A stretch of 64,000 nt of DNA from positions 1 through 64,000 of the forward strand of contig JAFBAP010000152.1 in NCBI GenBank assembly GCA_019247695.1, given 5' to 3'. Position 1 is the first letter of the stretch; each line of letters starts with the position of its first letter. The translations under genes and the position numbers were made by a program. The DNA comes from Verrucomicrobiota bacterium. GTDB lineage: Bacteria; Verrucomicrobiota; Verrucomicrobiia; Chthoniobacterales; JAFAMB01. Shown one piece after another: positions 8,177 through 46,999 of the stretch. The notes beneath the pieces are model-generated. The model saw only the letters and a program-made list of their open reading frames with translations. It was not told the origin of the DNA and ran no database searches.

Positions 8177-9103
8177 ATGTCATCCCGGAAAGGCTCGCAG
8201 GGTGTGCGTCTATCCAACGGTAAAAGCTTCTGCAAGCTGGTTTTGCACAGTGCCGGGTCGTTTGTTTGGCTCGTTTGGATTCCCATTGTTCTGGCGTTAG
8301 ATCCGCAAGAAATCACCGGCCGCTCTGACGCCGAAGTGGTGGGTTACGTGTACGAGATGACCGGCGACTGGCTGCAAAATGGATCACCACTGAAGCAGGG
8401 AGAGGGGGTCTTTGCAGGAGCGAAGATCGCCATCTCACCAGACTCCCTGGCCCAACACCCAAACGACGCTGAAATCATCATCCATCTGGCGAATGGACGG
8501 CACGAGGAGCGGTCGGCAAAAAACCCGGGATCTTTAAGCGTGCCGATTCAGCTCGAGCCTCTCGGAACGAGAGAGCCACCTTTCGACAGGGTGATCAAGG
8601 CGGTGCAATCACTCTTTGTTAAGCAACCTGAGCGCTACATCCCTACCATGACCCGAGGCCAGCGCAGCCAGCCTCTGCAGGAAACGGTGGTCGCGCTGCA
8701 GAATGGCGCCGTCGAACTGACCCCGTTGTTCGAGTCTATCCCAGGGGCAAGATACGTTGTTCGGCTTCGACCGCTGTCGGCGAGCGCGACCTCCCCATCG
8801 CCGAGTGCAAGTAAAACCACGATCGATTGGAATCCGGGCGCGAGGTCAGCAGCCTTGGTTCCTGTCGCCGGCCCCGGCCTGTACCGCGTGAGTATCATCC
8901 ACCCTGACGAGGGGCCGGTCGGCGAGACCTGGCTTTTGGTTTGCAAGCCGGAAAGCTTTCAGGCCGCGGATAACGCCTTCAAAAGCGCTCTTGAGCTTAC
9001 GCGACAGTGGGGACCGAGCGCTTCTGCAGAGGAGAAGCACGCGGTGCTTCGCGCATACCTGGAGCATCTCGCAAACGAACCGCGGAGGGACTGGACTAGA
9101 TGA
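8177..9103 (+). CDS. secreted FecR-like protein of the CHASE2/CHAT operon
   Basis: I do not recognise a named family with confidence. The 308-residue protein has an N-terminal hydrophobic stretch (about 27-41, WLVWIPIVLAL) followed by a segment (VVGYVYEMTGDWLQNG...VFAGAKIAIS) that resembles the FecR-like extracytoplasmic domain seen beside CHASE2 and CHAT genes. The rest has beta-rich sequence and a helical C-terminus. It overlaps the CHASE2 gene by four bases, so the three genes are almost certainly one transcript. An envelope role, feeding a signal to the CHASE2 sensor, is inference. Confidence 0.65.
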   Translation: MSSRKGSQGVRLSNGKSFCKLVLHSAGSFVWLVWIPIVLALDPQEITGRSDAEVVGYVYEMTGDWLQNGSPLKQGEGVFAGAKIAISPDSLAQHPNDAEIIIHLANGRHEERSAKNPGSLSVPIQLEPLGTREPPFDRVIKAVQSLFVKQPERYIPTMTRGQRSQPLQETVVALQNGAVELTPLFESIPGARYVVRLRPLSASATSPSPSASKTTIDWNPGARSAALVPVAGPGLYRVSIIHPDEGPVGETWLLVCKPESFQAADNAFKSALELTRQWGPSASAEEKHAVLRAYLEHLANEPRRDWTR

Positions 9104-10299
9104 GGTCAGAACTCTGGGAGCGTCTTAAACCGGCAGAACTTCGGAGCCACCTGAAATCGGCAGTCCTTGTGATCGGGTTCTGTACGGCTGTGACCTTCGT
9201 TTTTACCCAACTCGGATGGTTCAGCGGCCTCGAGAGCTCGTCGCTCGATTTTTTCCTTAAAACCGGTGAGCCGGTGCCGTCAAAGTACGTCTGGCTGATC
9301 GCCATCACCGATGACGATTACGACCATCTTTTTCACGAAAAGAGTCCGCTCGACGCCGATACCCTCGCCAAAATCATCCAGATCGCTGCGGAAGGACAAC
9401 CTGCTGTGATCGGCGTAGACATTGACACAACTAAATCGACGATCGTGTTTGATCGTAAGGTGATGGCGTCGTCTGCACACTGGCCGCCGATCATCTGGGC
9501 GCAGAATGCGGTTCAGAGAGACGGTGTGCTGGAGCCGCAACCGGTCCTTGGCGGCGCGCAGCCTCAACCGCCTGCGGCACTTGCCTTCTTTCCCATTGAT
9601 GAGAACGACCGGGTAGTCAGACGTTACCGGCGCATGCTTCCGACGGTCGATGGCGAGGAAAGATCGATGCCGTGGGCGTTGGTTAAAACGTTTTGCACCG
9701 TCCCTTCCGGAACTGGCCATCCCGCCGTCTGCCGCCGCATCGACGATCCAGACAGCGAACACCAGGAATCACCGCTGATCCTCACCTTCTCGGCGGGTCA
9801 CCATCCTAACACGCGCCGGATCGAAGCGACCGAATTACTGGCTCAGGAGAATAGTGACGGCTGGAAGGAGAATTCCCCAATCAAGGGGCAGATCGTCATC
9901 GTCGGCGGCGTTTTCAGCAAGTCGGCGGATTGGTATACTACGCCGTTCGGCCCATTGCCGGGCGCCGAGTTGATTGCCCAGGCGGTTGAGGCCGAACTGC
10001 AGGAAAGAACGATCAAGCCTGCGGCTGAGACATTCATGCTCGCAGTCGACGTCGTTTGCGGGTTTCTTCTGGTTATCTGGCAGTTTTATCGGCCGCACCG
10101 GCTCCATTTTGCGCTTCGAATGCTTGCAGTCCCGGTATTGGCGGTGCTGGCGAGCTACCTGGTTTTTTTCTCCCATGCTCACTGGATCAACTTCGTTCCT
10201 GTCCTTGCCGGCGTGGTCATCCATGAGGTTTATGAAAATCGGCACAAACACAAGCCGGACGATAAGGTGATCGCCGGTCCGGCCATAACAAAGGAATAG
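9100..10299 (+). CDS. CHASE2 domain membrane sensor
   Basis: This 399-residue protein has one N-terminal transmembrane helix (about 19-40), a large extracytoplasmic CHASE2 domain containing LDFFLKTGEP, WLIAITDDDYD, and VIGVDIDT, then three C-terminal transmembrane helices (roughly 310-380) and a short cytoplasmic tail. CHASE2 domains usually precede kinase, cyclase or HTH outputs; here there is no output domain, so the output is probably the following CHAT gene. Start and stop are coupled (ATGA) to the upstream gene, and the CHAT gene begins eight bases later. Confidence 0.82.
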   Translation: MRSELWERLKPAELRSHLKSAVLVIGFCTAVTFVFTQLGWFSGLESSSLDFFLKTGEPVPSKYVWLIAITDDDYDHLFHEKSPLDADTLAKIIQIAAEGQPAVIGVDIDTTKSTIVFDRKVMASSAHWPPIIWAQNAVQRDGVLEPQPVLGGAQPQPPAALAFFPIDENDRVVRRYRRMLPTVDGEERSMPWALVKTFCTVPSGTGHPAVCRRIDDPDSEHQESPLILTFSAGHHPNTRRIEATELLAQENSDGWKENSPIKGQIVIVGGVFSKSADWYTTPFGPLPGAELIAQAVEAELQERTIKPAAETFMLAVDVVCGFLLVIWQFYRPHRLHFALRMLAVPVLAVLASYLVFFSHAHWINFVPVLAGVVIHEVYENRHKHKPDDKVIAGPAITKE

Positions 10300-10307
10300 C
10301 CAAAAAC

Positions 10308-13010
10308 GTGTCCTCCATCCGGCCGAGTTCGAAGGCCCTCGTCACCTTACTTGCGTTGTGCCTTTTGGACCTGAGATGCCTCCAAGCTCAGCAGCCTGAG
10401 GTTGACCTGAGAACCCCGTCAGGTTTCGAAGCAGCCCTATCCGGCATTCATAAACTTGAGGATCGGCGAAAGCTGGATGAAGCCCTGCTTACAAGCGCGC
10501 GTTTCGAGGCTGCCGTCGAGCAGTTGTACGGCGGTGCATCGCCCCTCACCGCCGTTGCCAAGCGCGAATTCGCTGAAGCCTACATGTTACATTCGGATTT
10601 CGGTCATCCGGTGACGCTCCTGCAAGAGGCGCTACGGATTTTTGATTCGTATGCCGCGCCTGGGCAGTTTCAGGCGGCACGAACAAAGGTGGACCTGGGC
10701 GTATGCAACGCAATGATCGGGCAACTCGCTGAAGCGGAACGCCTCGACCTCGAGGCGTTAAACTACTTCAACCGGACCGGTCACGTCGACGAAGCCTCAA
10801 CCGTCCGGGCCAACCTCGCACGACTGTTCGCTCGTCAAGGTAAAATCGAGGATGCGATCTCCCTGAACCGGCAGGAGCTTGCCGCGCGGCGTGAAAAATA
10901 CCGGCGCGATGACCCTGGTGTTTTAACGATTCTTTATGAGCTCGGCGTCGATTACCTGACGTTAAAAGACATGCCGAAAGCTGAATCGCTTCTCCGTGAA
11001 GTGCTTGCGGCGGAAGATAAACGCAGCGGACACCGCGAGTCGAATCCGCTGGTACTGCGTACGCTCGGCTACGTATTGGTCGAAGAGGGCAAGTTCAGCG
11101 AGGCCGAGGTGCTGCTTCGTCGCGCGATGGACCGCGACGTCCGAAGGGTCGGCAGCCCCTCACACGAGGCGTTCTACCTTTCGATGCTATACGCGCATAC
11201 CGGCCGCTGGGAGGAAGCAACCCGGCTGATAGACGGTCGCGTTCGTTACCCGGCGCTCCGCGCCGGCCTTAGTTGCCTGTCCGAGTCTGAACAACTCTCA
11301 TACCTTCAGGATTACATGATCGAGGTCCAGACCGCGCTCTCGTTCGGTTTGGCGCAGCCGAATGACCCTAAGATCGTAACGGCCTCTGCGCAGTGGCTGC
11401 TCGCGAGTAAGGGGTTAGCTCACGAAGCCCTCGCGGAACGAACCTTGCTCGCACGCGACAGCGCGGATCCACAGGTTGTACAGATTGCCGGCGAGTTGCA
11501 GAGCGTCCGAACGCGCCTTGCTTTGTTGGCAAACACCGTGGTGACCGCGCCGGATGCCCCTGCATCCAAGGACCAGCTTGAACAACTCCTCCAGCGAGAG
11601 GCTGAGCTTTCACGCCAACTCGGGCAGGCCGAGCATCGTCCGCCCTCCGCGGGACGCGGTGTTGAACTCGCGGACGTGCGCGCCGGCATTCCGGCGGGCG
11701 GGATCCTGCTGGAATTTGCCAGGATCAATGCGGAAGACCTGAGTGATCATGGCGGCCCGAACGGAGCGAAGGGCATAAGCCGTTACGGCGTCTGGATCAT
11801 TCCGCCCGGCGATCAGACAGCCATTCAACTGGTGGATCTCGGCGACGCGAACACCATCGATGCCGAGATCGAGAAGGTGCGCAGGATCTTCAATAGCTTC
11901 GACCTTTCCATTGATCAAGACGAGGAACGCGACCTCGAGCAGGAATTCAAAGACGCCGCGGCGCCCCTCACCAACCTCATCCTTAAACCGCTGGAGGATC
12001 GGGTTGGCGATGTTAAACGGTGGATTCTAAGCCCCGATGGTCAACTCTGGCTGGTTCCCTGGGCAGCCCTCTGTACAACCGATGGGCGGAGCCTGGTGGA
12101 AAGCCACACGGTGAGTTACGTCATCAGCGGCCGTGACTTGCTCGTTCACGGTCGTCCGGTTCAGGATACGACGCCTCCGGTGATTATGGCAGATCCCAAT
12201 TACAACCTGCCCCCGGATGAAGCGGCGAGCAAAACCCGCAAGCTGATCGGTGAGTTAAAGACGGACACGGGACTGGCGGATCTATCTCCTCCCGAAGTCG
12301 CGGACGCGCGCACCAGAGTAAGACGGCTTATTCCCAGTCAAGCCGCAAGGCCTCTTCCGCACACGCGTGAGGAGGCGATGGCAATTCTTCCGTTTCTGGA
12401 GGCTTACGCCAAGGCGAAACCGCGCCTGTTCATGGGCGACGACGCGCTGGAAGGCGTTTTCAAGAGCATCCGCCGTCCGCGGGACGTGGTCTTCAGCACT
12501 CACGGCCAGTTCATCACCACAAAGGAGCTGGGCTTTGATGATTCTCACCTCAAACCTGGAACCGGGTTCCTCCTGGAGAACCCTCTTCTACGCTGCCGCC
12601 TGCTGCTTGCCGGATGCAATCAACGAACTGCCGGGAGCGATGATGCCGATGACGGCATCCTGACGGGTATGAAGATCGTCGGCTGCGACTTGCGCGGCAC
12701 CGATCTCGTCGTGTTGAGCGCATGCCAAACGGCACTCGGCGATGTTTATGCCGGCATGAGCGCGGCCGGATTGCGGCAAGCGTTCCAACTCGCAGGCGCG
12801 CAGACGGTGGTGGCCTCGCTTTGGTCTGTCCCCGACGTAGAGACCGCTGCCCTTATGAAGGGCTTTTTCAAGAATCTCGCGGCAGGAGATGCGAAAGCTG
12901 ACGCCCTCGCCGATGCGCAACGCGACCTCATCAAGACCCGCCGCGCGGCCCGGAAAGGAGCGGCGCATCCTTATTTCTGGGCGGCGTTTACCCTGACTGG
13001 TGCCCCGTAG
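10308..13010 (+). CDS. TPR-CHAT caspase-like protein
   Basis: The 900-residue protein starts at GTG and has a signal peptide (about 8-30), helical TPR repeats (about 50-330; GQLAEAERLDLEAL, GKIEDAISLN), a coiled region, and a C-terminal CHAT domain (about 560-900). CHAT proteins are caspase/separase-fold cysteine peptidases. The predicted dyad is His732 in FSTHGQF and Cys806 in VLSACQTA; the C-terminal HPYFWAAFTLTG is the standard CHAT ending. With a signal peptide the peptidase would lie outside the cytoplasm, unlike Craspase-type TPR-CHAT. Targets are unknown. Third gene of the CHASE2 operon. Confidence 0.85.
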   Translation: MSSIRPSSKALVTLLALCLLDLRCLQAQQPEVDLRTPSGFEAALSGIHKLEDRRKLDEALLTSARFEAAVEQLYGGASPLTAVAKREFAEAYMLHSDFGHPVTLLQEALRIFDSYAAPGQFQAARTKVDLGVCNAMIGQLAEAERLDLEALNYFNRTGHVDEASTVRANLARLFARQGKIEDAISLNRQELAARREKYRRDDPGVLTILYELGVDYLTLKDMPKAESLLREVLAAEDKRSGHRESNPLVLRTLGYVLVEEGKFSEAEVLLRRAMDRDVRRVGSPSHEAFYLSMLYAHTGRWEEATRLIDGRVRYPALRAGLSCLSESEQLSYLQDYMIEVQTALSFGLAQPNDPKIVTASAQWLLASKGLAHEALAERTLLARDSADPQVVQIAGELQSVRTRLALLANTVVTAPDAPASKDQLEQLLQREAELSRQLGQAEHRPPSAGRGVELADVRAGIPAGGILLEFARINAEDLSDHGGPNGAKGISRYGVWIIPPGDQTAIQLVDLGDANTIDAEIEKVRRIFNSFDLSIDQDEERDLEQEFKDAAAPLTNLILKPLEDRVGDVKRWILSPDGQLWLVPWAALCTTDGRSLVESHTVSYVISGRDLLVHGRPVQDTTPPVIMADPNYNLPPDEAASKTRKLIGELKTDTGLADLSPPEVADARTRVRRLIPSQAARPLPHTREEAMAILPFLEAYAKAKPRLFMGDDALEGVFKSIRRPRDVVFSTHGQFITTKELGFDDSHLKPGTGFLLENPLLRCRLLLAGCNQRTAGSDDADDGILTGMKIVGCDLRGTDLVVLSACQTALGDVYAGMSAAGLRQAFQLAGAQTVVASLWSVPDVETAALMKGFFKNLAAGDAKADALADAQRDLIKTRRAARKGAAHPYFWAAFTLTGAP

Positions 13011-26518: not shown

Positions 26519-26603
26519 CGACAGCGTGGCGCGCCAATCCCCGTTCAACACTTGGGCTCGGATTTGCAGGGTTCGAATCAGGCGGCTGAGGATCCGCAAT
26601 TAG

Positions 26604-27040
26604 TACTAGGCCCAACGGGCCGAGGGAACATAGCCCAGGGTTTTATCCGGCTGCCATTTGGTTAAGGGCGAGGAGGATGCTTTCGTCCCGCAGGGACGGC
26701 TGATGTTAGGCAGGTGTGTGAGATGCCCGGGAAAATTCACCCCGTTGCCGCCGGTTTTCACACACCCTCTTACACCATTTGGACAGTTATCCTGGTGGAA
26801 TTTCTCCCGGGTTTCAGCCCCGAAGGGACGCGAGAACATAGCCCAGGGTTTACCCTGGGTAACCGTCAAATCGCGATCGAGCCCTGAAGGGGCGGTAGAA
26901 GGCGTCGCTCATGGATTCTGCCGCCCCTTCAGGGCTCGATCGGGGGGAGGGGTGCGTTCCCAGGGTAAACCCTGGGCTATGTTCTACCGGCCCGTTGGGC
27001 CTAAGACAACATTCTACCTCGATGGCCATCGAAATGGTAT
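26604..27040. repeat. composite intergenic repeat
   Basis: The block contains the AGGCCCAACGGGCC arms, the ACACCATTTGGACAGTTATCC left end, the paired CTGAAGGGGCGG arms and the standard right end CGATGGCCATCGAAATGGTA. It immediately abuts the stop of the enolase-like gene. No gene. Confidence 0.7.
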
Positions 27041-28318: not shown

Positions 28319-29595
28319 CGGCGCACGATTTCCTGACCAAAGCGGTCTATAAGGTCCGGCACGGTTGCCGGGCAACAGGTGATCAACTGTAGGGCCGCAT
28401 CCCGCTGCCTGGCGCGTTCCTCGGCAGAAAGGTATTCAAGAGGCGAGCGGCCTGCCGTTCTGGCGAGCAGGCAAGCGGCTGTGTGTCTGGCTGCCCGGCA
28501 CTCGATGCCTTCAAACCAGGGAACCAGGTCCAGTTGCGCCGCGTAGGTTCCCCAATGTTCGAGCGCTGCCCCCAGCAACGGCGCTCGATGTTCCGGGAGG
28601 TGTAGCGCTTTACTGAGCAAATGGGTCAGGCTGAAGCCGACATCAAAGGCCGGATCGCCGAAATGAAGGACTTCGTGATCGAGCAACACCAGCCGCCGCC
28701 CATGCACCAGGACGTTTTTGGGGCTGTAATCGCCGTGGACCAGACTCACGCGGCGTTTGCGAACGTCTGCCAGCAAGGCAAGTAAAAACGCCTTCGCCTC
28801 GGGCACCGCCTCTGCGCTGAACCGGTAATAAGGTTCCAGCCGCAAGGTTTCGAAAAAGATGCGGCTTCGAAAAATCGGGGCTAACTCCTGACGCAGCTCG
28901 TGACTGGTCCGGTGAAGGGTTGCAAGCAGCCGCCCAAACTGCCGAACCAGGTCGCAATCGACCAAGCCCTTGAGCAGCCGTTCCTTCCAGTTTTCATGAG
29001 GTTCGGGCACCGCTTCCATGGCGAGCAGGTGCTGGCGTTGGTCTTCAAACAGGAGCGCTGGTGTGCTGTTTGGGGGTGTGAGGCGCGGGAGATACCGTAG
29101 AGCGTTAGCTTCCACCTGAATCCGCGCCGGGTCACTGAACCATTCGGTTTGGACGCGCAATTTTGGGAGGGCTTGCTTTAAAACCCAGCGAGCGCCGTCC
29201 TGCCGCTGCAGCAAAATCGTTTTATTTGAGACGCCCCCCGGCAGGGCGCGAAGCCCCGGAGTTTCATCCGGGTCGATCCGCCCGGTTTGGCGCAAGTACC
29301 TGATCAGCTCGTCGGCATCCTCGATATCAATAAGGATAAATGTATCCGCCGGGCACGCCGCCTGCAAACGATGCAAGAGCCTTTTCACCCTTGTCACACG
29401 TCGCCGCCGGCATCGGACGGAGGATCGAAATTGGTAATGTGAATCCAGCGCCTCGCCGCCCTGCCAAACCGGGACGTGAGCTGTTGTATCGATTACCTCC
29501 AAAGGCCTTCCTAACTTCCAGGGCCTCCGCCGTGAGAATTGGACAAAACCTGAGCCGGGCGGCTTAATATTACAGTCGCAGATGGTGCAAGGCAT
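28315..29595 (-). CDS. phosphotransferase (aminoglycoside/choline kinase fold)
   Basis: The C-terminal 300 residues form an APH-fold kinase: GGVSNKTILLQ (nucleotide loop), WVLKQALP (Lys), VHGDYSPKNVLV (catalytic Asp and Asn) and LLDHEVLHFGDPAFDVGF (metal Asp). The first 90 residues are unusual and include LIDIEDADELIRYL. The start is uncertain: the ATG at 29595 lies inside a transposase relic, and a TTG at 29502 after AGGAAGG is a good alternative. Substrate unknown. It is translationally coupled to the enolase paralogue, so the two probably act on one small-molecule pathway. Confidence 0.75.
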   Translation of the reverse strand: MPCTICDCNIKPPGSGFVQFSRRRPWKLGRPLEVIDTTAHVPVWQGGEALDSHYQFRSSVRCRRRRVTRVKRLLHRLQAACPADTFILIDIEDADELIRYLRQTGRIDPDETPGLRALPGGVSNKTILLQRQDGARWVLKQALPKLRVQTEWFSDPARIQVEANALRYLPRLTPPNSTPALLFEDQRQHLLAMEAVPEPHENWKERLLKGLVDCDLVRQFGRLLATLHRTSHELRQELAPIFRSRIFFETLRLEPYYRFSAEAVPEAKAFLLALLADVRKRRVSLVHGDYSPKNVLVHGRRLVLLDHEVLHFGDPAFDVGFSLTHLLSKALHLPEHRAPLLGAALEHWGTYAAQLDLVPWFEGIECRAARHTAACLLARTAGRSPLEYLSAEERARQRDAALQLITCCPATVPDLIDRFGQEIVRR

Positions 29596-29700
29596 TCAAG
29601 GCGTTCCGGATTTTGTAGTGAAAGAACTGCGCTTGGGCTTGGTGAGTCCGGCGCCAATTCGACCAGTGCAGCACCGCGGCTAACCGGCGCACCGGCGGGA
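29570..29700 (-). pseudogene. transposase C-terminal relic
   Basis: The minus-strand frame ends VRRLAAVLHWSNWRRTHQAQ..FFHYKIRNAL and then stops. The W-S-x-W-R-R-x-H-Q-A pattern recalls the C-terminal tail of IS701-like DDE transposases. No catalytic DDE core remains. It overlaps the annotated start of the phosphotransferase gene. Confidence 0.4.
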
Positions 29701-29873
29701 CGGTAGGATATCGACGTAAATCTTGAGTTGAACTTGCTCGTGAGCAAAGCCCGGCAACTAAGAATTGACTCTCCGCGAGCGAGGCATTGACCCTCCACTG
29801 TTTTGAGCTGCGCTCGGCAACGAGGTTCTGGTACAAAGTTTATGCAGCCCGCCGAAATCCAGCTTACCGCCTT

Positions 29874-32800
29874 ATGGATAGTCCCCTGCAATCTTCAACC
29901 CTCAGCGACATTCAGATCAAGCTTGTCCATGTGGAGTTTCTTCGTGCAGGACCTCCTCACAACCAGCTGCTGTCGCCGCTCACGGAATATCTTGCCATCT
30001 CGGGTGACTCCGGGGCCGGGGTCGTTTCGGTGCCGTACGAACACGCGGCCTTCGAGAGACGCCTGAGAGAGTTGCGTTACGAAACCGGCGCGCCTGCCGA
30101 TCGCCAGGCGATGCTGCACACCACCGGTGTGGAGATGGGTAGAATTCTCGGGTCTGTTCCGGGGCTGCCGGGTGCACTGGCCAGTGATCCGAACCACACG
30201 AGCACGCTTGTCCATCTTCGCATCACCCTCTCCCCGTCTGAACTGGCTCTCCTCCCCTTTGAAATCGCAAAAGTGCCGGTATCTCCTGCCGTGACCGGGG
30301 AGAGTTGTCTGTCGATCCAGACGCGCCCGCCGATCTGCATAACCAGAAACATCCGAACGGTATCGGCGGAAGGGGTCGTATGGCCGGACCGGCCGCGCAT
30401 CCTGTTCATCGCCGGCGATCCGGATTACGTCCCTTACGAAGATCACCGAAAAAAGCTTCTGGAGGCGATTCAACCTTTCCGATACCCGCGCCGCGATGAT
30501 CCCGTGCGCTCGAAGGACCCCGACCGCGAACAGTACGGTGATTTGCTGACGATCCTGATCAATCCGACGCTGACGCAAGTCGTGGGAGAATGCGATGACC
30601 ACAAGTACACGCATGTTCATGTCCTTGCTCATGGCGACCTGAGCGAGACCTCACGCGATTCATTCGGCCTGGTCCTTCGTGCGGACGACGGCTCGGCCGA
30701 CGTGGTGTCCGGCGAGCAATTTGCCTGCGCACTGACGTCGGTCGGCGACAACCGCATTCACCGGCCTACCGTGGTCACCGTCGCGAGCTGCGACAGCGCC
30801 AACGTCGGCACCGTCGCCGTTCCAGGCGCGAGCTTCGCGCATGCGCTGCATCAGTCCGGTATTCCTCTGGTGGTCGCCTCGCAGTTTCCGCTCAGCAAAG
30901 ACGGCTCGATCCCCTTTGCCGAGACCCTCTATAAGGGACTTCTCTGGGGCAGGAATCCGCTCGTGCTGCTCCAGCAGTTGCGTAGCAAGCTGCATGCTCT
31001 TTTCACGTCGACTTGGCATGACTGGGCGAGTCTTGTCGTCTACGAGGCGCTCCCCCAAACGTGGTCCGAACAGTTGGATGCGCTGCGATACCGCCAAACC
31101 CGGCGGGCGATGAACGCCGCGCTCGAGCGCATCGACATTGCGGTACGAAAGGCTGCTCAAGAAGCGCCGAGTACCACGTCATTCGAAGAGTGTGACAGGG
31201 ATATCAACAATGTCGTGGAGCGATTGCCATTGAACGGGCAGTACGGCGTCGAGTGCCTTGGTCTCCGGGCCAGCTCGCTTAAGCGTTTGGCGCAGGCGGC
31301 ATTTACGCTTTCCGAGCAAACCCCTTCAAACGATCGCAGGTACTGGAGAGATGAATACGAGCTGCTCGAGGAGGCGTTGCACTACTACGACCAGGGGGTG
31401 CGCGGCATGCTCGTCAACGAGGCACGCGCGGTGCAGCGCATCGCCACCGTACATTGGGTGTTGGTCCAGTTCATTTCGCTCTCGGTAGTGTTAGGAAAGG
31501 ATAATGACGAGGCGCGGTGGAGTGCAGCCACGTTTTGTGCGGATTTGTATCGTGAGCATGCAACGAAGGAAGAACGTGCATGGGCGCAGGGCAGCCTCGC
31601 CGAGCTGTGGTTGCTTCGGCTCGGTAAACCCGGTCTGAGCCAGACGCAAAAGGAGGAATGCTACAAAGAGGCGATGGAACACGCCCGGAGACTCGTTGCG
31701 TTCTATCCATGGGGCGACGAGTTTCCGGTGCAGTCCACGCGACGGCAATTCGACCGCTACGTCAATTGGTGGGGCACAGAACGTTTCAAGCAGGGGTTGG
31801 CTGAGCGAGGGATTCAGCGCTGCGCCGAATGGGACGGATCGTTCGGTCTGATTCATACGGCAGGAGATCTGGTCAAAGTCCTGCGCCGGAAGGGGGGCGG
31901 ACCGGCCGGCAATCCCACGGCGCCACCGTCGTTGGGTCCTTCGGAGAGTGGAGGTGGATCAATGCCGCCTGGGCCTGCCAGTCCTCCGGGGGACGGCGGA
32001 TCCGCGGCCTCAGGGTCGAGTGCACCGGTTGCGCCTGCGCAGCCTGGCGAGCCGGCCGGCAGCCAGTCAAGCCAGTCACCCACGCTCGGACCATCGGCGA
32101 GCGGTAGGAGCCCGCCACCGCCTCGCAAATCCCGGGGCGCGCCATTCTTCCGGGTCGAGATGCTCCCGGCTGAACATGGGGACGCCCTATGGATCGAGTA
32201 CGGTGATCAACGGTCTACCCATCGATGGATGATCGACTGCGGTACTCAGCGGGCGGTCAAAGAGCTAAACCGCCGCGTCGAGGCGGTGCCTGAGAAAGAG
32301 CGGCTGCTCGAGCTGTTCATCATGTCTCACATCGACTCGGATCATATCGGGGGTGCGCTTCCGTTCCTCAAAACGATCAAACGCGGGTTGAAGTTCGGCG
32401 ACGTCTGGTTTAACGGTTGGCGCCACGTCTCGGGACAACTCGGCGCAAGACAAGGCGAGATCTTTTCAACCGCGATTCAGGAGTTTGAGCTCCCGTGGAA
32501 CCGGTGGTTGGACGGGGGAACTATCGTCGTGGCCGGTGACGAACTCCCGGAATACACGCTGCCCGGAGGCATGAGACTCACCTTGCTGTCGCCGACGCCG
32601 GCGCAGTTGAAGAAACTGGCTCCGGCGTGGACGCGTGAACTGAAACGTTACGGCCTGGAGCCTGGCTCCCGAGTCGACTACAGTCAATTCCTAAGGGGAA
32701 AGCCGTCATCTTCTACCGACGTTGATCAACTGGCTGATTCAGCCTTTGCCGGCGACGCCGGTGTTCCGAATGGCTCGAGTATAGCCGTCCTGGCGGAGTT

Positions 32801-33233
32801 TGAGGGCGCAAGCGTCCTCCTCGGTGCCGATGCGCATGCCCCTGTCCTGGCGGCTTCTGTCCGGATGCTGCTGCAGCAACGTCGTGGCATGGCCGGCTCG
32901 AAGCTGAAGCTGGATGCCTTCAAGGTGCCGCACCACGCAAGCCAGAACAACCTGAGCACTGAACTGCTTGAGCTCCTCGATTGCCCTCGGTACCTTGTCT
33001 CAACCAACGGCAATCACTTTTGCCATCCGGACCGCGAGGCGATCGCGCGGATTATCAAATACGGTCGGAACAAGGACGGCGCGAGCCGGCCGTCCCTGCA
33101 CTTCAACTACCGGAGTAAATACAACGAAGTGTGGGCGCGTCCGGATCTGCAGGAGCAATATAGGTATGAAGCAATCTACCCCGAGGCTGGCAAGGAGGGA
33201 CTTCACGTCGCGCTGCTAGGGCAAAGTACGTAG
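29874..33233 (+). CDS. CHAT peptidase-metallo-beta-lactamase fusion protein
   Basis: The roughly 1119-residue cytoplasmic protein combines three parts. An N-terminal CHAT domain (about 1-390) has His253 in LAHGDLSE and Cys306 in VASCDSAN. A helical, TPR-like middle (about 420-670) is followed by a proline/glycine/serine linker (about 680-750). The C-terminus is a ComEC/Rec2-like metallo-beta-lactamase (about 755-1100) with SHIDSDHIGG (His819, Asp821, Asp823, His824), LLGADAHAP and VPHHASQNN. The MBL part is a likely phosphoesterase or nuclease. ATG at 29874 chosen; a weak TTG at 29787 extends the frame. A protease-triggered nuclease for immunity or cell suicide is inference. Confidence 0.82.
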   Translation: MDSPLQSSTLSDIQIKLVHVEFLRAGPPHNQLLSPLTEYLAISGDSGAGVVSVPYEHAAFERRLRELRYETGAPADRQAMLHTTGVEMGRILGSVPGLPGALASDPNHTSTLVHLRITLSPSELALLPFEIAKVPVSPAVTGESCLSIQTRPPICITRNIRTVSAEGVVWPDRPRILFIAGDPDYVPYEDHRKKLLEAIQPFRYPRRDDPVRSKDPDREQYGDLLTILINPTLTQVVGECDDHKYTHVHVLAHGDLSETSRDSFGLVLRADDGSADVVSGEQFACALTSVGDNRIHRPTVVTVASCDSANVGTVAVPGASFAHALHQSGIPLVVASQFPLSKDGSIPFAETLYKGLLWGRNPLVLLQQLRSKLHALFTSTWHDWASLVVYEALPQTWSEQLDALRYRQTRRAMNAALERIDIAVRKAAQEAPSTTSFEECDRDINNVVERLPLNGQYGVECLGLRASSLKRLAQAAFTLSEQTPSNDRRYWRDEYELLEEALHYYDQGVRGMLVNEARAVQRIATVHWVLVQFISLSVVLGKDNDEARWSAATFCADLYREHATKEERAWAQGSLAELWLLRLGKPGLSQTQKEECYKEAMEHARRLVAFYPWGDEFPVQSTRRQFDRYVNWWGTERFKQGLAERGIQRCAEWDGSFGLIHTAGDLVKVLRRKGGGPAGNPTAPPSLGPSESGGGSMPPGPASPPGDGGSAASGSSAPVAPAQPGEPAGSQSSQSPTLGPSASGRSPPPPRKSRGAPFFRVEMLPAEHGDALWIEYGDQRSTHRWMIDCGTQRAVKELNRRVEAVPEKERLLELFIMSHIDSDHIGGALPFLKTIKRGLKFGDVWFNGWRHVSGQLGARQGEIFSTAIQEFELPWNRWLDGGTIVVAGDELPEYTLPGGMRLTLLSPTPAQLKKLAPAWTRELKRYGLEPGSRVDYSQFLRGKPSSSTDVDQLADSAFAGDAGVPNGSSIAVLAEFEGASVLLGADAHAPVLAASVRMLLQQRRGMAGSKLKLDAFKVPHHASQNNLSTELLELLDCPRYLVSTNGNHFCHPDREAIARIIKYGRNKDGASRPSLHFNYRSKYNEVWARPDLQEQYRYEAIYPEAGKEGLHVALLGQST

Positions 33234-33239
33234 GCCGGA

Positions 33240-33885
33240 ATACCATTTCGACGGCGATAGAGGTAAAATCTTGTCGTCCTTCCCAGGCGCCCTGCGAGCG
33301 TTACACCTGTTGAACCGTATAAACGGTTTAGGCCCGACGGGCCGGGAGACCTTAGCCCAGGGTAGAACCCCACTGCCATTTAGTTAAGGACGGCAGGCCG
33401 GGTATTGCCTTCGTCCCGGAGGGACGGCTGAGGTTAGGCAGGTAGCTTTAGTGCCTGTGCCTGTGAAGGCGTCCCCCAGGGGTTGCGTCCCATCGGGACG
33501 CCTGAAGGCGTGCGCCGGGCCAGGCGGGCCTCAACGGTGGGGCGCCGTTCGGGTGTTCGTCGCCGAGGGTCGCGCCGGGTTTGGCTGGCCGTTTGGGAGC
33601 CGGCACGCCACGGGGCAGCGTTTCAGGCGTCCCGACGGGACGCGATCCCCCTTAAATGCCCCGTCCAGGGACTGAAGTCCCTGGCTAACCTCAGCCGTCC
33701 CTTCGGGACGAAAGCGCCCCCTCCAGCGGCCCTTAACTAAATGGCAGCGGGGTGGAACCCTGGGAAGGCGTTTCCCCCGCCATCCAGCCCTCCAAAGGCG
33801 TCACGTCCGTACGCCCACCCCGACAAACGCCCGCCCCGCCGGGGCGGGCGTTTGTCGGGGTGGGCGTACGGACGTGACGCCTTAG
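33240..33885. repeat. composite intergenic repeat with an 89-bp hairpin
   Basis: It starts with the inverted family end ATACCATTTCGACGGC and holds the GGCCCGACGGGCC, GGGACTGAAGTCCC and AACTAAATGGCAG modules. At 33795-33883 two 43-base arms are perfectly complementary around a 3-base loop. Reading frames inside are repeat shadows. The span from 33234 to 34071 has no gene. Confidence 0.75.
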
Positions 33886-39285: not shown

Positions 39286-39552
39286 CAGCAAGCAATGCCA
39301 CCGGCCACCCGTTCTGGCCGTCTCACTCGCGCAACGAGCCGCTCAATCAACCTCAAAACCGGTGTATTGAAAGTTTGGAGATGGCACCCTCCGCCTTCTT
39401 CTTGCAGGCTGCCGTTTCATTGAAAGTGCTAACATGGCACCTTTCGGTTGCCCTCGCTCCTGCCGTGATCGCCGCGTGCGAACCAGCCTTTTCCGGTGTT
39501 CGACGCGGCTCAAGTGTTGTTGCAGACTGCCGATCCCTCTCGGAGTTTACGA

Positions 39553-42500
39553 ATGCCGTCCGACGCCTCAAACTTGAGCCCTCCTGCCAACGAGTCGACC
39601 TCGCCCCAAACGCCTGTCCGGATTCATTGCATCTATGCCGGCACCGTGAGCGCCGCGTTCCACCAGAACGCGGTCCCGTTTCTGGCCGAGCTTGCGCTTG
39701 AGAGCACCAGTGACCTCCACGACGTCGTGGTCACCTTGACAAGCGACCCGCCGTTCCTGCGGCCCGAGACTTGGCGATTGGACCAACTCTCCCGAGGCCG
39801 CCGGCAAGATTTACCAGTAATCCACGTTCGGCTCGACGCAGGGTTCCTGGGGCGCTTGACCGAGGGATTAGTCGGTTCGTTTACGCTTACGATTTCCGCA
39901 AACGGCGCTGAGGCTACCCACTTCAGCGCCGACGTCCGACTCCTGCCGCCCTCGCACTGGACTGGAGCGAGGGTTGCGCCCGCACTCCTCGCGGCCTTTG
40001 TCCGGCCCAATGAGCCGGCCATCGACAGCCTCCTGCACCGGGCATCCGGTAAACTCGCCGAGGCGGGCCGCCCGACCGGGATTGATGGGTATGGCAGCGG
40101 CCGCAAAGCGCGGGTTTGGGAGATCGCGGAAGCAATCTGGGCCGCTGTATCCGAACTGGGACTCACCTACGTTTACCCTCCGGCCAGCTTCGAAGAGGAA
40201 GGCCAGAAGGTACGCAGCCCGGGTGACCTGCTTGAGCATCGGGTCGGCACTTGTCTGGACACAAGCGTACTCCTGGCCTCCTGCTTTGAGCAAGCCGGGC
40301 TGTATTCGGCTCTGATCCTGGTTCAAGGGCATGCCTTTGTCGGCGTGGCGCTCCAGCCTTTCGACAATGATGTTCCCGTGGTCTGGGATGTGCAGGCTCT
40401 GCGCAAGAGACGTGATCTGCAAGAACTGATCCTGATCGAGAGCACGTTGCTCACCGAAAAGGAGCCCGTTCGATTCACGGAAGCCCTCCGGATCGGTGGA
40501 ACGCACCTGGAGCATTGGGCTCCGGCGCCGTTTCAGTTGGCGGTAGACGTAGCGGCCGCCAGAAGATCCGGGATTCGCCCGCTTGAACTTGGCGACCGCC
40601 ACGCTTTGGAAGGCGAAGCGTCAAACGACCCGTCAAGGGAGGCGCCCCGCCCGGAGCTGACCCTTGATCCCACTCCAACTTTCCTGGAAGACGGGCCGGC
40701 GCCGGAACGTCCGGTGCTCACGGGGGCCGATCGCCTCGAATCTTGGAAGCGCCGGCTCCTGGACCTGACCCTGCGCAACAAGCTGCTCAACTTCGGCAGG
40801 GGCACCGGGTCGGTCACCCTTTTCTGTCCGGACGCCTCCGAACTGGAAGATGCGCTTGCGGCAGGCAAAAAGTTCAAAATCCGGTCTCTCCCCGACGCGT
40901 CCCCGAGTGCCAGTTCGTCTGACCCGGTCCCGCCGCCCCGTTACTCAGGAACGGCTGCAGCAGCTAACGAGAAAGACCCGCCGCAGTTGGCGTTTGAACG
41001 CGGCGAACTCTTCGCCGATACCGGCTCAGATGATCTCGAAAACCGACTCACGGAACTTTATCGCAAGACGCGGACTGCGTTTGAAGAAGGTGGCGCCAAC
41101 GTTCTTTACCTCGCGTTCGGCTTTCTGCGTTGGTGTGAAACCAAAGGCAGCCGAGAATGCCGGGCACCCATCCTTCTGGTTCCCGTAGCCCTGGAGCGCA
41201 AAAGCGTGCTGGATGGTTTCCGCTTGGCTTCACATGAGGACGAGCCCCAACTCAATCCGACGCTCATGGAAATGTTGCGTCAGGATTTTCGTTTGGAGAT
41301 CCCGGAACTGGAACGAGAACTCCCGAGGGATCTCTCCGGACTCGATGTTCCAAAGATCCTGCACACCTTCAGGCAGCGAACCCGCGACTTCCACGGATGG
41401 GAAGTTAGCGAGGAAATTTCGCTCTCGACCTTTTCGTTCACCAAGCACCTCATGTGGTGTGACCTCCAGGAGCGTGCGGACAAGCTCAAGGAGAACGCCT
41501 TGGTGCGCCACCTCATCGACACGCCCCGCGTCGCATTCGCCGATGGCGCCGCGTTTCCGCGGCCGGAGGAGCTCGACCGTACCTACCCGCCGCAGAATGT
41601 GTTTGCGCCGCTTCCGGCCGATTCTTCCCAGCTTGCAGCGGTGTTCGCAGCCTCCGCCGGCAAGAACTTCGTCCTGTTCGGACCGCCCGGCACCGGCAAG
41701 AGCCAGACCATTACCAACGTCATCGCGCAATGCTTGGCCGAAGGAAAGACCGTCCTGTTTGTTTCCCATAAAACCGCGGCTCTGGAGGTCGTCCAACGAC
41801 GCTTGTGCGATATCGGCCTGGGCGACCGCGCGCTTGAGCTCCACTCGAACAAAGCGCAGAAATCGCTGGTGCTCGCCCGGCTCAAACAGGCGTGGCTAAA
41901 AGGCAAACTGCCGCCGGTACCCGACTGGCCGAAGGCGACCGCAGAACTGGCGAAACTGCGAGAGGAACTTAACGGGTTTGTCCGAGCATTGCATCGGACC
42001 TGGCCAAACGGCGACACGCCGTACCGGGCGTTCGGTCGTTTGGTCGCCCGTCGCGGGTTGTACGAAAATCTCACTTTCGCGCACCCAATGCCTGGAGCCG
42101 GTCCAAACGCGGAAGGACCGGACACCACAGAACTCGGCCGGGAACTCACGGCTGCGGCTCGGATCGTCGGCGATTTCGCGAATCACCCCTTGCGCGAGTG
42201 GGGTGCGCGCGCCTTTTCTCCCGCATGGAATCGCGAGGTACACAAACACCTGACTGCCGCGCTCGGCGCTCTGGATCAGCTTGATCGGGCCGTTGACGCC
42301 GCCGTCACCGGCCTCGCGTTGCCGAAACCGGCCGGGTGCGCCGGCGTTGTGGCGTTGACGGACTTCTGCGTGGCCTTGGGGGGTTGCAGTGGACGGGAGG
42401 CGGAACTGCTTGCGCAGGTGCCGAGCGCGCCTGATGCCAATCTCGATCGGGAGATGGTCGAGCTCTCCCGATTGCAAGCCCATGACACGAGCCTCGCAGG

Positions 42501-45500
42501 CCGGTTGCAAGGCAGTTACCAACCGACGGTGCTCGAGATTGATGTCGAGGCCCTGACCACCCGCTGGTCGGCCGCCGGGAAGGCCTTTATTCTTTCCCGT
42601 ATTTTCACGCGGAACGCCGTTCGAAAGGTCCTCGCCGGCCACGCCTCAGGTCCGTTGCCCGCAGACCTGGGGCCTGACCTGAGCATTCTGGCGGAACGCC
42701 GGCTCTTAGACCAACACGCTAGGGATTTGACGACGCTGAAGGCGGTGTTTGGCAACCGATGGGCTGGCCTGAAGACCGACCTTGCACCCCTTCGGCGTGC
42801 CCTTGAGCTGCAAGCCGCGGCCACCAGATTGCTGGCTGCGCTCCCGACGCGTCCGCTGCCGGAGGGGGGCAACGGATGGTCTCCCGCACTGCTTTTTACC
42901 CGATGGCAGTCCGATGTAGCGGGTAACCTCTCAACCCTCCCCGACTATTGGAAAGCGTTCAACGGAGCCTGGAGCAGCCTCTGCCACCTGGTGGGCGCCG
43001 ATCCTACCCTACCTGAGCCGTGGGCGGATTGCACGCGCGCCACCCTCGTGCGCTGGCAGGGTGCGCTGTCCAAGGCGCCGGGATGGCTTTATTGGAACGA
43101 GGCAGCGGGCCGGGTGTCCGCCGCAGGTTTCGGTTCGGTTGTCCGAGCGCTCGCCGCAGGAATGATCCGGCCCGACGAGGTCACGAGCGTGTTGGAGACC
43201 GTCTATACGCGTTGGTGGGTGGAAGGCGTTATGGCTGAGGAACCTGCCTTGGCTAAATTCTTTCCGGAACGACACGAAGACCTCCTCGCTCGCTTTCAGC
43301 AGGCAGACGCTGCGGTCCAACGGCTGTCGACAAGAATGCTTCAGGCCAAGCTGGGATGCGGCGTGCCTGATCCGAACGACTTCGGCAAAGATCCGGAGTG
43401 GGGCGTCCTGTCGCGGGAATTACAGAAGAAGGCAAGGCACTTACCGCTGCGGCGGCTTTTCGAGAAAATCCCGAATGCCTTGGTCCGCCTGACGCCCTGC
43501 CTCATGATGAGCCCGCTCTCGGTGGCGCAATACCTTTCGGCGGACGCGCCTTTATTTGATCTCGTGATCTTTGACGAAGCATCACAAATCCCCGTCTGGG
43601 ACGCCATCGGCGCGCTTGCCCGAGGTCGCCAGGCACTGATCGTCGGAGACCCCGAGCAGTTGCCGCCGGCAACTTTTGGCGAACGCACGTTCGAAGAGGC
43701 GGACGACGCCGAAGAAGAGGGCGACCAGGAGAGTATCCTGGACGAATGCCTGGCCGCAAACGTTCCCCGACGCTCCCTCAGGTGGCATTACCGGAGCAGG
43801 CACGAGAGCCTGATCACCTTTTCCAATCAACGTTACTACAACGGCGAGCTTGTCACGTTTCCATCAGCGGTCACCGCCGACCGTGCCGTCCGTTACGTGC
43901 ACGTGCCGGGCGGGGTTTACGAACGGGGCGGTGCCCGGGTCAACCGGGAAGAGGCGCGTCAGGTCACGGCCGAAGTCGTCCGCAGGCTCCGGGACCCGGC
44001 ATTCGTCCGCGAGAAACGCTCGCTGGGCGTCGTCACGTTCAACGCTCAACAGCAGCGCCTGATCGAAAACCTTCTGGACGCTGAGCGCCGCCAGGACCCG
44101 GCCTTGGAAAGCTTTTTCCAGACGGAACGCTGGCACGAACCGGTCTTCGTCAAAAATCTGGAAAACGTGCAGGGCGACGAGCGTGACCTCATCATCTTTT
44201 CCGTTGCAGTCGGTCCGGATGGCGCAGGGCGCGTCCACTCAACCATCTCGTCGCTCAACCGTCAGGGCGGCCATCGACGGTTGAACGTCGCCGTAACCCG
44301 AGCCCGGGCCGAGATGCTGGTCTTTGCGACGTTGCGTCCCGAAATGATCGACGCCGTGCGGCTTGGAAACCGGGGCATCACTGACTTTAAAGCATTTCTG
44401 GAGTACTCGCAGCGTGGGCCGGCTGCCTTGGCCCAGTCATCGGCGCCGACCGGGCGCGAGACCGAGTCACCGTTCGAAGACGCCGTTCAGGAAGCCTTGC
44501 AGAGACGCGGCTGGACCCTTCACCCGCAGGTTGGGGTTTCGGGGTTTCGGATCGACTTCGGCGTCGTTCACCCGGACGAACCCGGACGCTACCTCGCCGG
44601 GATCGAATGCGACGGCGCAACCTACCACCGTCAAGCCACCGCCCGAGACCGGGATCGGCTCCGGGAAGGGATTCTCACGGGTATGGGTTGGCGGATCCGC
44701 CGGATTTGGAGCACTGAATGGTGGCAAGACGCCGAGGCTGCGTGCGAACGGTTGGACGCCAAACTGCAGGCGGACCTGGCGGAGGATCGTGCAGCATGTA
44801 AGAACAAGGCGTGCGAGATGGTTGTATCCGCCGCCTCTGAACGGGACCAGAACCAGGCGGAAGCGGACGTTGCCTCAGCCGAGGTTCCGGAAGGGAACGC
44901 CACGCGCCTCTCCGGCAGCACCCCTCAGGAAGCGCTGCCCGCAGATCCGCCGGCTGCCGCTCTTGGGTCGGTGGTTTACGCGCGTTTGCCAAAGGAACCG
45001 CTGGACTCCTCAACTCAAGAGTACCAACCCGCCGACCTCCCGGCCGCCGGATTCGTTCCGCTCGCGCCCCGGTTCCACGACCCCCTCTATGGGCCGACTT
45101 TGCGCGCCATGGTCGCCCATGTGGTGGAAGCGGAAGGACCGATTTTGGATCGTGTTCTGATCAAGCGGTTGGCCCGCGCCCACGGATTTAAGCAGTGCGG
45201 CAGCCGGATTCGCGGTCGCGTTCTGGATGCCGTCGATCCCAGGTGCGAGCGCACGGTCCAAGGCGACGCCTTCGTTATCTGGCCGGCCGGTTTACACCCC
45301 AGCGGGAGCATTCCATTTCGGCGAGCGCTTCCCGGCGTCCGCCCGCTGGAGGACATCCCCGATGTGGAATTGGTCGGCCTCGCTACGGCGTTGGTGGACG
45401 GTGGCCTGACCGATGCAGAGTGCATCGCCGCCGCGGCGGAAGAGCTCGGGATCATTCGTCTGTCCAAAGGGATAGAGGCGAAACTGATGACGATCGTTCA

Positions 45501-45552
45501 GGCTGCGCGCGATTGCCCAACGGCTGGTAGCGAGGACCGCGAAGCGGCTTGA
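39553..45552 (+). CDS. DUF4011-helicase-Vsr-like-DUF3320 giant protein (Hhe-type defence candidate)
   Basis: The 1999-residue protein has a transglutaminase-like N-terminal domain (GTCLDTS with Cys234, then GHAFVG and VVWDVQ), DUF4011 (from about 394, WKRRLLDLTLRNKLLNF), an SF1 DNA2/NAM7-like helicase (Walker A GPPGTGKSQT near 710, Walker B IFDEASQIP near 1341, VIFSVAV-like and NVAVTRAR motifs), a Vsr/MTES-like nuclease (SPFEDAVQEAL near 1637, IECDG near 1684), and a C-terminal DUF3320 region. The combination matches the DUF4011-helicase-Vsr antiphage family. The ATG at 39553 follows a CGGAG ribosome site; an upstream GTG (39496) is less likely. It probably restricts foreign DNA alone. Confidence 0.85.
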   Translation: MPSDASNLSPPANESTSPQTPVRIHCIYAGTVSAAFHQNAVPFLAELALESTSDLHDVVVTLTSDPPFLRPETWRLDQLSRGRRQDLPVIHVRLDAGFLGRLTEGLVGSFTLTISANGAEATHFSADVRLLPPSHWTGARVAPALLAAFVRPNEPAIDSLLHRASGKLAEAGRPTGIDGYGSGRKARVWEIAEAIWAAVSELGLTYVYPPASFEEEGQKVRSPGDLLEHRVGTCLDTSVLLASCFEQAGLYSALILVQGHAFVGVALQPFDNDVPVVWDVQALRKRRDLQELILIESTLLTEKEPVRFTEALRIGGTHLEHWAPAPFQLAVDVAAARRSGIRPLELGDRHALEGEASNDPSREAPRPELTLDPTPTFLEDGPAPERPVLTGADRLESWKRRLLDLTLRNKLLNFGRGTGSVTLFCPDASELEDALAAGKKFKIRSLPDASPSASSSDPVPPPRYSGTAAAANEKDPPQLAFERGELFADTGSDDLENRLTELYRKTRTAFEEGGANVLYLAFGFLRWCETKGSRECRAPILLVPVALERKSVLDGFRLASHEDEPQLNPTLMEMLRQDFRLEIPELERELPRDLSGLDVPKILHTFRQRTRDFHGWEVSEEISLSTFSFTKHLMWCDLQERADKLKENALVRHLIDTPRVAFADGAAFPRPEELDRTYPPQNVFAPLPADSSQLAAVFAASAGKNFVLFGPPGTGKSQTITNVIAQCLAEGKTVLFVSHKTAALEVVQRRLCDIGLGDRALELHSNKAQKSLVLARLKQAWLKGKLPPVPDWPKATAELAKLREELNGFVRALHRTWPNGDTPYRAFGRLVARRGLYENLTFAHPMPGAGPNAEGPDTTELGRELTAAARIVGDFANHPLREWGARAFSPAWNREVHKHLTAALGALDQLDRAVDAAVTGLALPKPAGCAGVVALTDFCVALGGCSGREAELLAQVPSAPDANLDREMVELSRLQAHDTSLAGRLQGSYQPTVLEIDVEALTTRWSAAGKAFILSRIFTRNAVRKVLAGHASGPLPADLGPDLSILAERRLLDQHARDLTTLKAVFGNRWAGLKTDLAPLRRALELQAAATRLLAALPTRPLPEGGNGWSPALLFTRWQSDVAGNLSTLPDYWKAFNGAWSSLCHLVGADPTLPEPWADCTRATLVRWQGALSKAPGWLYWNEAAGRVSAAGFGSVVRALAAGMIRPDEVTSVLETVYTRWWVEGVMAEEPALAKFFPERHEDLLARFQQADAAVQRLSTRMLQAKLGCGVPDPNDFGKDPEWGVLSRELQKKARHLPLRRLFEKIPNALVRLTPCLMMSPLSVAQYLSADAPLFDLVIFDEASQIPVWDAIGALARGRQALIVGDPEQLPPATFGERTFEEADDAEEEGDQESILDECLAANVPRRSLRWHYRSRHESLITFSNQRYYNGELVTFPSAVTADRAVRYVHVPGGVYERGGARVNREEARQVTAEVVRRLRDPAFVREKRSLGVVTFNAQQQRLIENLLDAERRQDPALESFFQTERWHEPVFVKNLENVQGDERDLIIFSVAVGPDGAGRVHSTISSLNRQGGHRRLNVAVTRARAEMLVFATLRPEMIDAVRLGNRGITDFKAFLEYSQRGPAALAQSSAPTGRETESPFEDAVQEALQRRGWTLHPQVGVSGFRIDFGVVHPDEPGRYLAGIECDGATYHRQATARDRDRLREGILTGMGWRIRRIWSTEWWQDAEAACERLDAKLQADLAEDRAACKNKACEMVVSAASERDQNQAEADVASAEVPEGNATRLSGSTPQEALPADPPAAALGSVVYARLPKEPLDSSTQEYQPADLPAAGFVPLAPRFHDPLYGPTLRAMVAHVVEAEGPILDRVLIKRLARAHGFKQCGSRIRGRVLDAVDPRCERTVQGDAFVIWPAGLHPSGSIPFRRALPGVRPLEDIPDVELVGLATALVDGGLTDAECIAAAAEELGIIRLSKGIEAKLMTIVQAARDCPTAGSEDREAA

Positions 45553-45847: not shown

Positions 45848-46999
45848 TCAGACGCCTTCGGACAGTTCGCCCTGGAGCTCGTCCTGGGAGTCTTTATCCC
45901 ATCTGAAACCCGGAAAAGAGAATTCATCCTTAAACTGCCTCATCGAGTTTAGTACCGGTTGAAGGACGCCGCGCACGCCGTCGGCGTTATTTGCCTTTGC
46001 AAGTGCATCCTCCAGTGGTTGCGCCCAGATGAACCCCGGATCGGTGGCAAAATAGTTCGGCGCGTCTAGAGGTTTCCAAGCGCTTCCCCCGTTCAGACAA
46101 GCCCTTGCGGCCGATAGCATCTTCGTCCGTGTATCCTCCGGCGTCTGACCGTTCAAGCAAATGATCCCTCCGGCATACACAACGCCCCGCGCGGGGTATC
46201 CATGCCAAAACCCGAGATGGAATCCGAGTTTCCAGTCACCGTGGTGGCAGCGCAGGCCGTATAACCAGCCTGCAAGCAACGAGCGTATGCGCTGGTTCGG
46301 GCGCGTCAACATGCGGCCGCCGAGTTCCCGAAATCTATTCTGGATGTCTGAATTAAAGACGGCATCAAGCATTTGTACGCAGGAGCCAAAATTTACCAGT
46401 GCGTCAAGGTGCGGGCGCGTGATTTTCACAGGTGTGGCGATGTGATGTTCCCTGATAAAGCGGTACGTCTGGTCAGCGAGGTAGCTTTGGTTGGCTTGTA
46501 GAAAATCTTCAAGGATTTCGTAAAAGGATTCCCACCTCGTTTGAATGAACTGCGCTCTTCCGTCGGGCGGATCTATGTTCTCAAAATCGCGGGTGACGCA
46601 GATCAGCGTGGCGGTTACGCCGGGATCCTTGGCCATGCGGTTGGTTAGTTCGTTTTGATAATCGCGTAGTTGTTCGCGCTTAAGCGGGCAGTCGAGCTTC
46701 GATTCGATGACGATCAGGTGCACGCCCGCGTCATGTTGGATGCGGATCAAAATATCGTAGAACCCCGATCGATCCGGCGCTATCTCGGCGTGTTCCTGAA
46801 CCGTGACCTCCAAACTACCGGCACGAGGGATGTCCTGCACCCGGATTTTGTCCAGCCACCGGTAAAGTAACTCAGGATGCGTCCTGAATGCTTCTGCCAC
46901 CAATTCAGAAAAGAAGTTTTCCTCCGGCTTTGCCTCTTTCGAGCAATGCCGCCACAAGCGCGAAAATAAGCTGTTCACCTTTAAGTCTTGGATTGCCAC
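45848..46999 (-). CDS. PD-(D/E)XK nuclease superfamily protein
   Basis: The 383-residue protein has the PD-(D/E)XK core in YDILIRI (Asp82) and IVIESKL (Glu99-x-Lys101), followed by the QLRDYQNEL helix, typical of the PDDEXK_4 group. The rest contains KITRPHLDALVNFG and a basic region around RMLTRPNQRIRSLL. Such proteins occur next to helicases in defence loci and act as DNA nucleases. It converges on the helicase gene; it is not in its operon. Codon use is somewhat more AT-rich than neighbours, suggesting transfer. Confidence 0.8.
   Translation of the reverse strand: MAIQDLKVNSLFSRLWRHCSKEAKPEENFFSELVAEAFRTHPELLYRWLDKIRVQDIPRAGSLEVTVQEHAEIAPDRSGFYDILIRIQHDAGVHLIVIESKLDCPLKREQLRDYQNELTNRMAKDPGVTATLICVTRDFENIDPPDGRAQFIQTRWESFYEILEDFLQANQSYLADQTYRFIREHHIATPVKITRPHLDALVNFGSCVQMLDAVFNSDIQNRFRELGGRMLTRPNQRIRSLLAGWLYGLRCHHGDWKLGFHLGFWHGYPARGVVYAGGIICLNGQTPEDTRTKMLSAARACLNGGSAWKPLDAPNYFATDPGFIWAQPLEDALAKANNADGVRGVLQPVLNSMRQFKDEFSFPGFRWDKDSQDELQGELSEGV

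Follow-up and report, generated by a model that had tools for sequence, protein, structure and literature searches.

A gene fusing a CHAT caspase-fold domain to a predicted loop-gated metallo-β-lactamase nuclease in a Verrucomicrobiota genome

The window analyzed here, a 64,000-nucleotide stretch of a Verrucomicrobiota contig, contains on its forward strand a single open reading frame (29874–33233) that runs uninterrupted from ATG to TAG and encodes a protein of 1119 residues. The gene joins a CHAT caspase-fold domain to a metallo-β-lactamase (MBL) fold in one open frame, and nine homologous in-frame fusions were found elsewhere. The N-terminal region and CHAT domain occupy residues 1–395 (29874–31058), within which the Pfam CHAT profile (PF12770) matches residues 114–389 above its cut-off (E = 3.5e-19). 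The predicted catalytic dyad lies at the positions given in the original prediction, with His253 (codon 30630–30632) in a VLAHG motif and Cys306 (codon 30789–30791) in an ASCDS motif; both residues are invariant in 10/10 fusions and in all aligned CHAT sequences. An AlphaFold2 model of the fusion, for which 42 related sequences served as input (mean pLDDT 83.5), comprises the CHAT domain up to residue ∼395, helices at 397–670, a disordered stretch at 675–753 and the MBL fold at ∼757–1115, confirming that a helical middle and a low-complexity linker are present in the one polypeptide, as had been proposed. The middle domain (31062–31883) is modeled confidently, is TPR-like (with a weak Pfam TPR-S match, E = 0.0085) and is the presumed sensor or regulator, and the linker (31896–32132) is rich in Pro, Gly and Ser, with pLDDT below 50. 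By fold, the fusion comes closest in the PDB to the SAVED-CHAT filament in its activated form (8tl0, E = 4.6e-07) and to Csx29, the TPR-CHAT protein of Craspase; the PADLOC SAVED_CHAT profile covers the CHAT part only (residues 240–386).

The C-terminal domain (32142–33218) is predicted to be a gated nuclease of the MBL fold. It carries the HxDxDH motif that had been noted on this chain, as HIDSDH at residues 819–824 (32328–32345), together with the metal ligand Asp986 (32829–32831), His1020–His1021 of an HHxS motif (32931–32936) and His1051 of an STNGxxFxHP motif (33024–33026). Among the PADLOC profiles, the MBL part matches LmuA (E = 5.5e-66), Avs1a (1.6e-42) and RTasMBL (2.3e-38), so that, when the protein is searched against this defense-gene collection as originally suggested, the nearest MBL families all belong to anti-phage systems. 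The NCBIfam Avs1a profile also matches (1.4e-58, below its cut-off), and Lactamase_B is a sub-threshold Pfam match. The earlier description of the domain as ComEC-like stands only as a remote relationship within the MBL fold: the ComEC_Rec2 profile (TIGR00361) scores 19.1 bits (E = 3e-4) against a cut-off of 190, far behind the LmuA, Avs1a and RTasMBL profiles, and unlike ComEC/Rec2 the fusion has no membrane channel or competence region. In the MBL tree, the fusions form one group (94/98) inside a radiation that includes the MBLs of canu, Lamassu, AVAST and Hachiman, and most of the surveyed loci of this family pair the MBL with a protease (trypsin-like, caspase or subtilase). By sequence comparison, the MBL domain is homologous to the gated pro-nucleases (Avs1a, LmuA, HamM and CanC), a family with experimentally proven members, and shares with them an intact set of metal ligands.

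The genes that neighbor the fusion in the window encode an aminoglycoside-phosphotransferase-like (APH) protein, enolase and RND efflux components, in agreement with the earlier remark that there is no obvious partner gene. The transposase relic reported just upstream did not withstand closer scrutiny: the 88-residue frame concerned (29573–29836, reverse strand) has no Pfam transposase match, and the genome holds one partial second copy of it, in apparently noncoding DNA. Two kinds of repeat occur nearby. Downstream of the fusion gene (33795–33883), a 44-nt sequence is perfectly repeated in inverted orientation around a 1-nt loop; a dispersed palindromic family, found at 26590–27010 and elsewhere, has 149 matches in the genome and four exact core copies in the window. 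Within 8177–13010, a CHASE2 protein (9100–10299) precedes a second, unrelated CHAT protein of the TPR-CHAT type (10308–13010; PF12770, E = 1.2e-63). Six kilobases downstream of the fusion lies a DUF4011 helicase/REase gene (39496–45552), the 2018-residue product of which combines the DUF4011 helicase with an MTES_1575 nuclease and DUF3320 and matches the PADLOC profiles PDC-S37 (1196 bits) and Hhe, making it a candidate one-gene defense system; the adjoining gene (45848–46999) encodes a 383-residue protein with weak similarity to the PDDEXK_4 nucleases (E = 0.0021).

The CHAT module was used in a pattern-based scan of 84,980 species genomes, from which prevalence can be read as a lower bound; at least 55 relatives were returned. 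The nine further CHAT–linker–MBL fusions (L013–L020 and L062; 1061–1190 residues) come from Acidobacteriota, Methylococcaceae and Rubrivivax, which adds two phyla to that of the window genome. Whether homologues keep both active sites had been named beforehand as a question on which the prediction depends: H253 and C306 of the CHAT domain and H819, D821, D823, H824, D986, H1020, H1021 and H1051 of the MBL domain are invariant in 10/10 fusions. The nine homologues are all from metagenome-assembled genomes; as ten separate assemblies share an identical internal junction, an assembly accident is very unlikely. The fusions also form a single group in the CHAT tree (100/100) and, because they do so in both trees, they are most simply explained by one fusion event, followed by inheritance and transfer between phyla. 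The nearest fusion relatives of the window gene are from Acidobacteriota, and of the 97 genomes searched from the family and order of the window genome, that genome alone has the fusion (1/97). The viral contigs searched contain no relative, and phage records gave a single remote MBL match, which covers a quarter of the query at 24% identity.

The closest functional precedents are the protease-activated nucleases of Tuck et al. (2025, Science, PMC12799240). As described there, the Hachiman and AVAST MBLs are pro-nucleases with loops that cover the active site, and a trypsin-like partner cleaves after specific isoleucines (I118 and I218 in HamM, I134 in Avs1a). In canu (caspase–nuclease, CanABC), a caspase switches the nuclease on, and conserved glycines in both loops are required for defense. 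In the systems described there, the nuclease is always encoded by its own gene, apart from the protease, and the authors suggest that this separation protects against self-damage. Other diverse protease families are mentioned in the same paper, the main text of which does not contain the word CHAT.

The corresponding loops were located in the fusion by alignment and from the AlphaFold2 model. Gating loop 1 (residues 849–858; 32418–32447) contains a candidate cut site at Leu856/Gly857, as Ile134 of an Avs1a homologue (NPI-SAKQG) and Ile116 of a HamM homologue share an alignment column with Leu856. This column holds Leu in nine fusions and Met in one, followed by Gly in 6/10; in the canu proteins, the same position is occupied by Leu, Phe, Tyr or Met and followed by Gly. 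Residues 855–857 are the sole stretch of the MBL with pLDDT below 50, and the second loop (∼921–940 and 961–970) is the next weakest. Gating loop 2 (residues ∼926–966; 32649–32771) includes Leu940, which is invariant in the fusions and is the candidate second cut site, at a position where the alignment does not place the match to site 2 of Avs1a and HamM with certainty. Loop 1 of the fusions is shorter than that of AVAST, Hachiman and Lamassu, and nearer to that of canu.

Both gating loops retain conserved residues across the fusions. The linker, by contrast, lacks any invariant position, is anywhere between 35 and 142 residues long and shows a mean pairwise identity of 0.24; this absence of conservation rules it out as a conserved self-cleavage site. 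In the original prediction, the CHAT domain of a self-cleaving effector releases or activates the MBL; in the release version, it would cut this linker and thereby free the MBL nuclease. Although the linker is long and disordered in the model, and so would be accessible to a protease, its sequence and length are unconserved and the proven relatives are activated at their gating loops, not by release, in the systems of PMC12799240; we therefore regard release through the linker as quite unlikely. The broader idea that the CHAT domain activates its own MBL is well supported by the homology to MBLs that are opened by partner proteases (PMC12799240). The unconserved, length-variable linker and the evidence for Leu856 and the loops together lead us to prefer cleavage at the gating loops, whether within one chain or between copies, with the linker probably acting as a flexible tether.

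Comparison with named systems places the fusion beside several of them and inside none. Like canu, it pairs an MBL of the gated family with a caspase-clan cysteine protease and has the nuclease module downstream; loop 1 is likewise short, and in most fusions its P1-like residue is followed by Gly. However, the canu protease is a C14 caspase with an Ig-like fold; CanB is a separate component, and the nuclease has its own gene, which lies downstream of the one for the protease. The fusion, by contrast, is a CHAT protein encoded in one open frame in ten genomes. Pfam found PF12770 as the sole protease family in the fusion protein, and neither PF00656 nor an Ig-like domain. The helical middle was considered as a fused CanB and rejected, as hhalign against six CanB-position proteins returned a probability of 0.1%. 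Because the protease family, the gene layout and CanB all differ, the fusion is not a canu system. AVAST type 1 (Avs1a/Avs1b), Lamassu, Hachiman (HamM/HamA) and DRT share the homologous MBL, with a cut-site residue that aligns with Leu856, but in the descriptions of PMC12799240 their protease is trypsin-like and fused to another defense protein, and their nuclease is a separate gene. Their core genes (Avs STAND, LmuB SMC-like, HamAB and RT) were not found at the window locus, so the fusion belongs to none of these four. SAVED-CHAT and the Craspase TPR-CHAT (Csx29) resemble it in the CHAT fold, the dyad and the helical repeats, and are signal-activated immune proteases; the fusion differs in having no SAVED domain and no CRISPR partner found adjacent to it, and in that its proposed substrate is fused to the protease.

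The reading that we consider probable is that the fusion is a one-protein protease-activated nuclease, in which cleavage of the MBL gating loops by the CHAT domain of the same protein unlocks a suicidal DNase. At rest, the C-terminal MBL would be a pro-nuclease with its active site covered by the two loops. The helical middle domain would sense a trigger that is probably some indication of phage infection, perhaps with oligomerization; the active CHAT domain would then cut the loops, with Leu856/Gly857 and the Leu940 region as candidate sites, in its own MBL or in that of a neighboring copy; and the opened MBL would degrade DNA, killing or arresting the cell. Analogy to Csx29, SAVED-CHAT and HamA suggests the sensor role of the helical domain, the oligomerization and the phage trigger, and for the fusion as a whole we infer proteolysis, DNA cleavage, the defense function and the trigger. 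The patchy distribution of the gene, its invariant catalytic residues and the likeness of its CHAT domain to immune proteases were counted in favor of this mechanism; the scarcity of defense genes beside the fusions (2/10 loci, see below), the length of loop 1, the unaligned site 2 and the origin of all homologues from metagenome assemblies were counted against it.

PADLOC was applied to 57 neighbors of the ten loci and gave few convincing matches (the kinase and WYL matches near L014 are generic), and enrichment in defense islands was accordingly rejected. A convincing defense gene lies nearby at two of the ten fusion loci, in the form of a type I methyltransferase with a nucleotidyltransferase-partner gene at L015 and of the DUF4011 gene in the window; the original prediction, which feared homologues beside housekeeping genes only, thus comes through weakly, as the remaining eight have no such neighbor. 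These few defense neighbors and many housekeeping ones are what would be expected if the protein were not antiviral, acting instead as an enzyme of a stress response or of developmental cell death, or as a hydrolase of a non-DNA substrate, but the anti-phage origin of all of the nearest MBL families, the transfer between phyla and the patchy occurrence argue otherwise, and we hold a non-antiviral role to be quite unlikely. Separately, a Tle1-like DUF2235 gene is present on the opposite strand at 4/10 fusion loci (L017, L018, L019 and L062), and DUF2235 genes also occur in one canu locus and one subtilase–MBL locus (L068 and L077).

The CHAT module is found with other effectors. The 51 non-fusion loci considered include five plasmid or relative-genome loci, and L007 and L051 represent one contig. 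At 47/51, a gene for a calcineurin-like metallophosphoesterase lies directly upstream of the CHAT module, and at the other four (L026, L032, L043 and L047) a subtilase (S8) gene takes its place; no non-fusion locus has the fused MBL (0/51) and no fusion has a metallophosphoesterase or subtilase gene (0/10). The metal-binding motifs are invariant in 22 aligned metallophosphoesterases, and a model built for one of these enzymes gave about equally weak matches to Mre11/SbcD nucleases and to purple acid phosphatases, with nothing at E ≤ 0.001. The two-gene metallophosphoesterase–CHAT pair is spread over at least six phyla (non-fusion loci among L002–L004, L012 and L021–L067). Some of the pairs in Paraburkholderia and Bradyrhizobium adjoin genes for TPR-S, TIR or SLATT membrane proteins or for a muramidase, and several of these are partners typical of predicted conflict systems. 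In Fuerstiella (L059:7266–8492), an unfused MBL of the fusion type is convergent with a metallophosphoesterase–CHAT pair, with an IstB-like gene nearby. An Agrobacterium plasmid (L080:4022–9083) carries MBL, metallophosphoesterase and ORC-CDC6-like genes in a row; it was set aside, since the third gene is ORC-CDC6-like and not CHAT.

The CHAT module is also found without the MBL, next to a gene for a metallophosphoesterase or for a subtilase, which is consistent with CHAT and MBL being parallel effectors under one sensor, the former cutting other host proteins and the latter working independently. This arrangement appears unlikely, as MBLs of this family are protease-paired in most loci seen and the cut-site column of loop 1 stays hydrophobic in the fusions. 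Self-activation through the gating loops remains our preferred reading, and the occurrence of the module with alternative partners suggests, from gene content, a CHAT family with swappable effectors. A search of the available literature library found no paper linking CHAT with an MBL of this type or with the metallophosphoesterase, nor any description of the metallophosphoesterase–CHAT pair, which is apparently undescribed, or of the swappable-effector family.

What is new here is the presence of a protease and its predicted nuclease zymogen in one chain, a variant on the two-gene protease-activated nucleases; CHAT-linked nucleases may already be on the supplementary tree of PMC12799240. More tentatively, and with somewhat less than even confidence, the single chain may constitute a complete one-gene immune switch, as one branch of a CHAT family in which a gated MBL nuclease, a metallophosphoesterase and a subtilase replace one another as effector, with the metallophosphoesterase–CHAT pair as a second widespread, proteolytically controlled defense system. 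As a natural single-chain version, the fusion would test how a lethal pair can be restrained in cis; it would offer a compact one-gene system for mechanistic studies, and it draws attention to a wider CHAT family in which the effectors are interchangeable.
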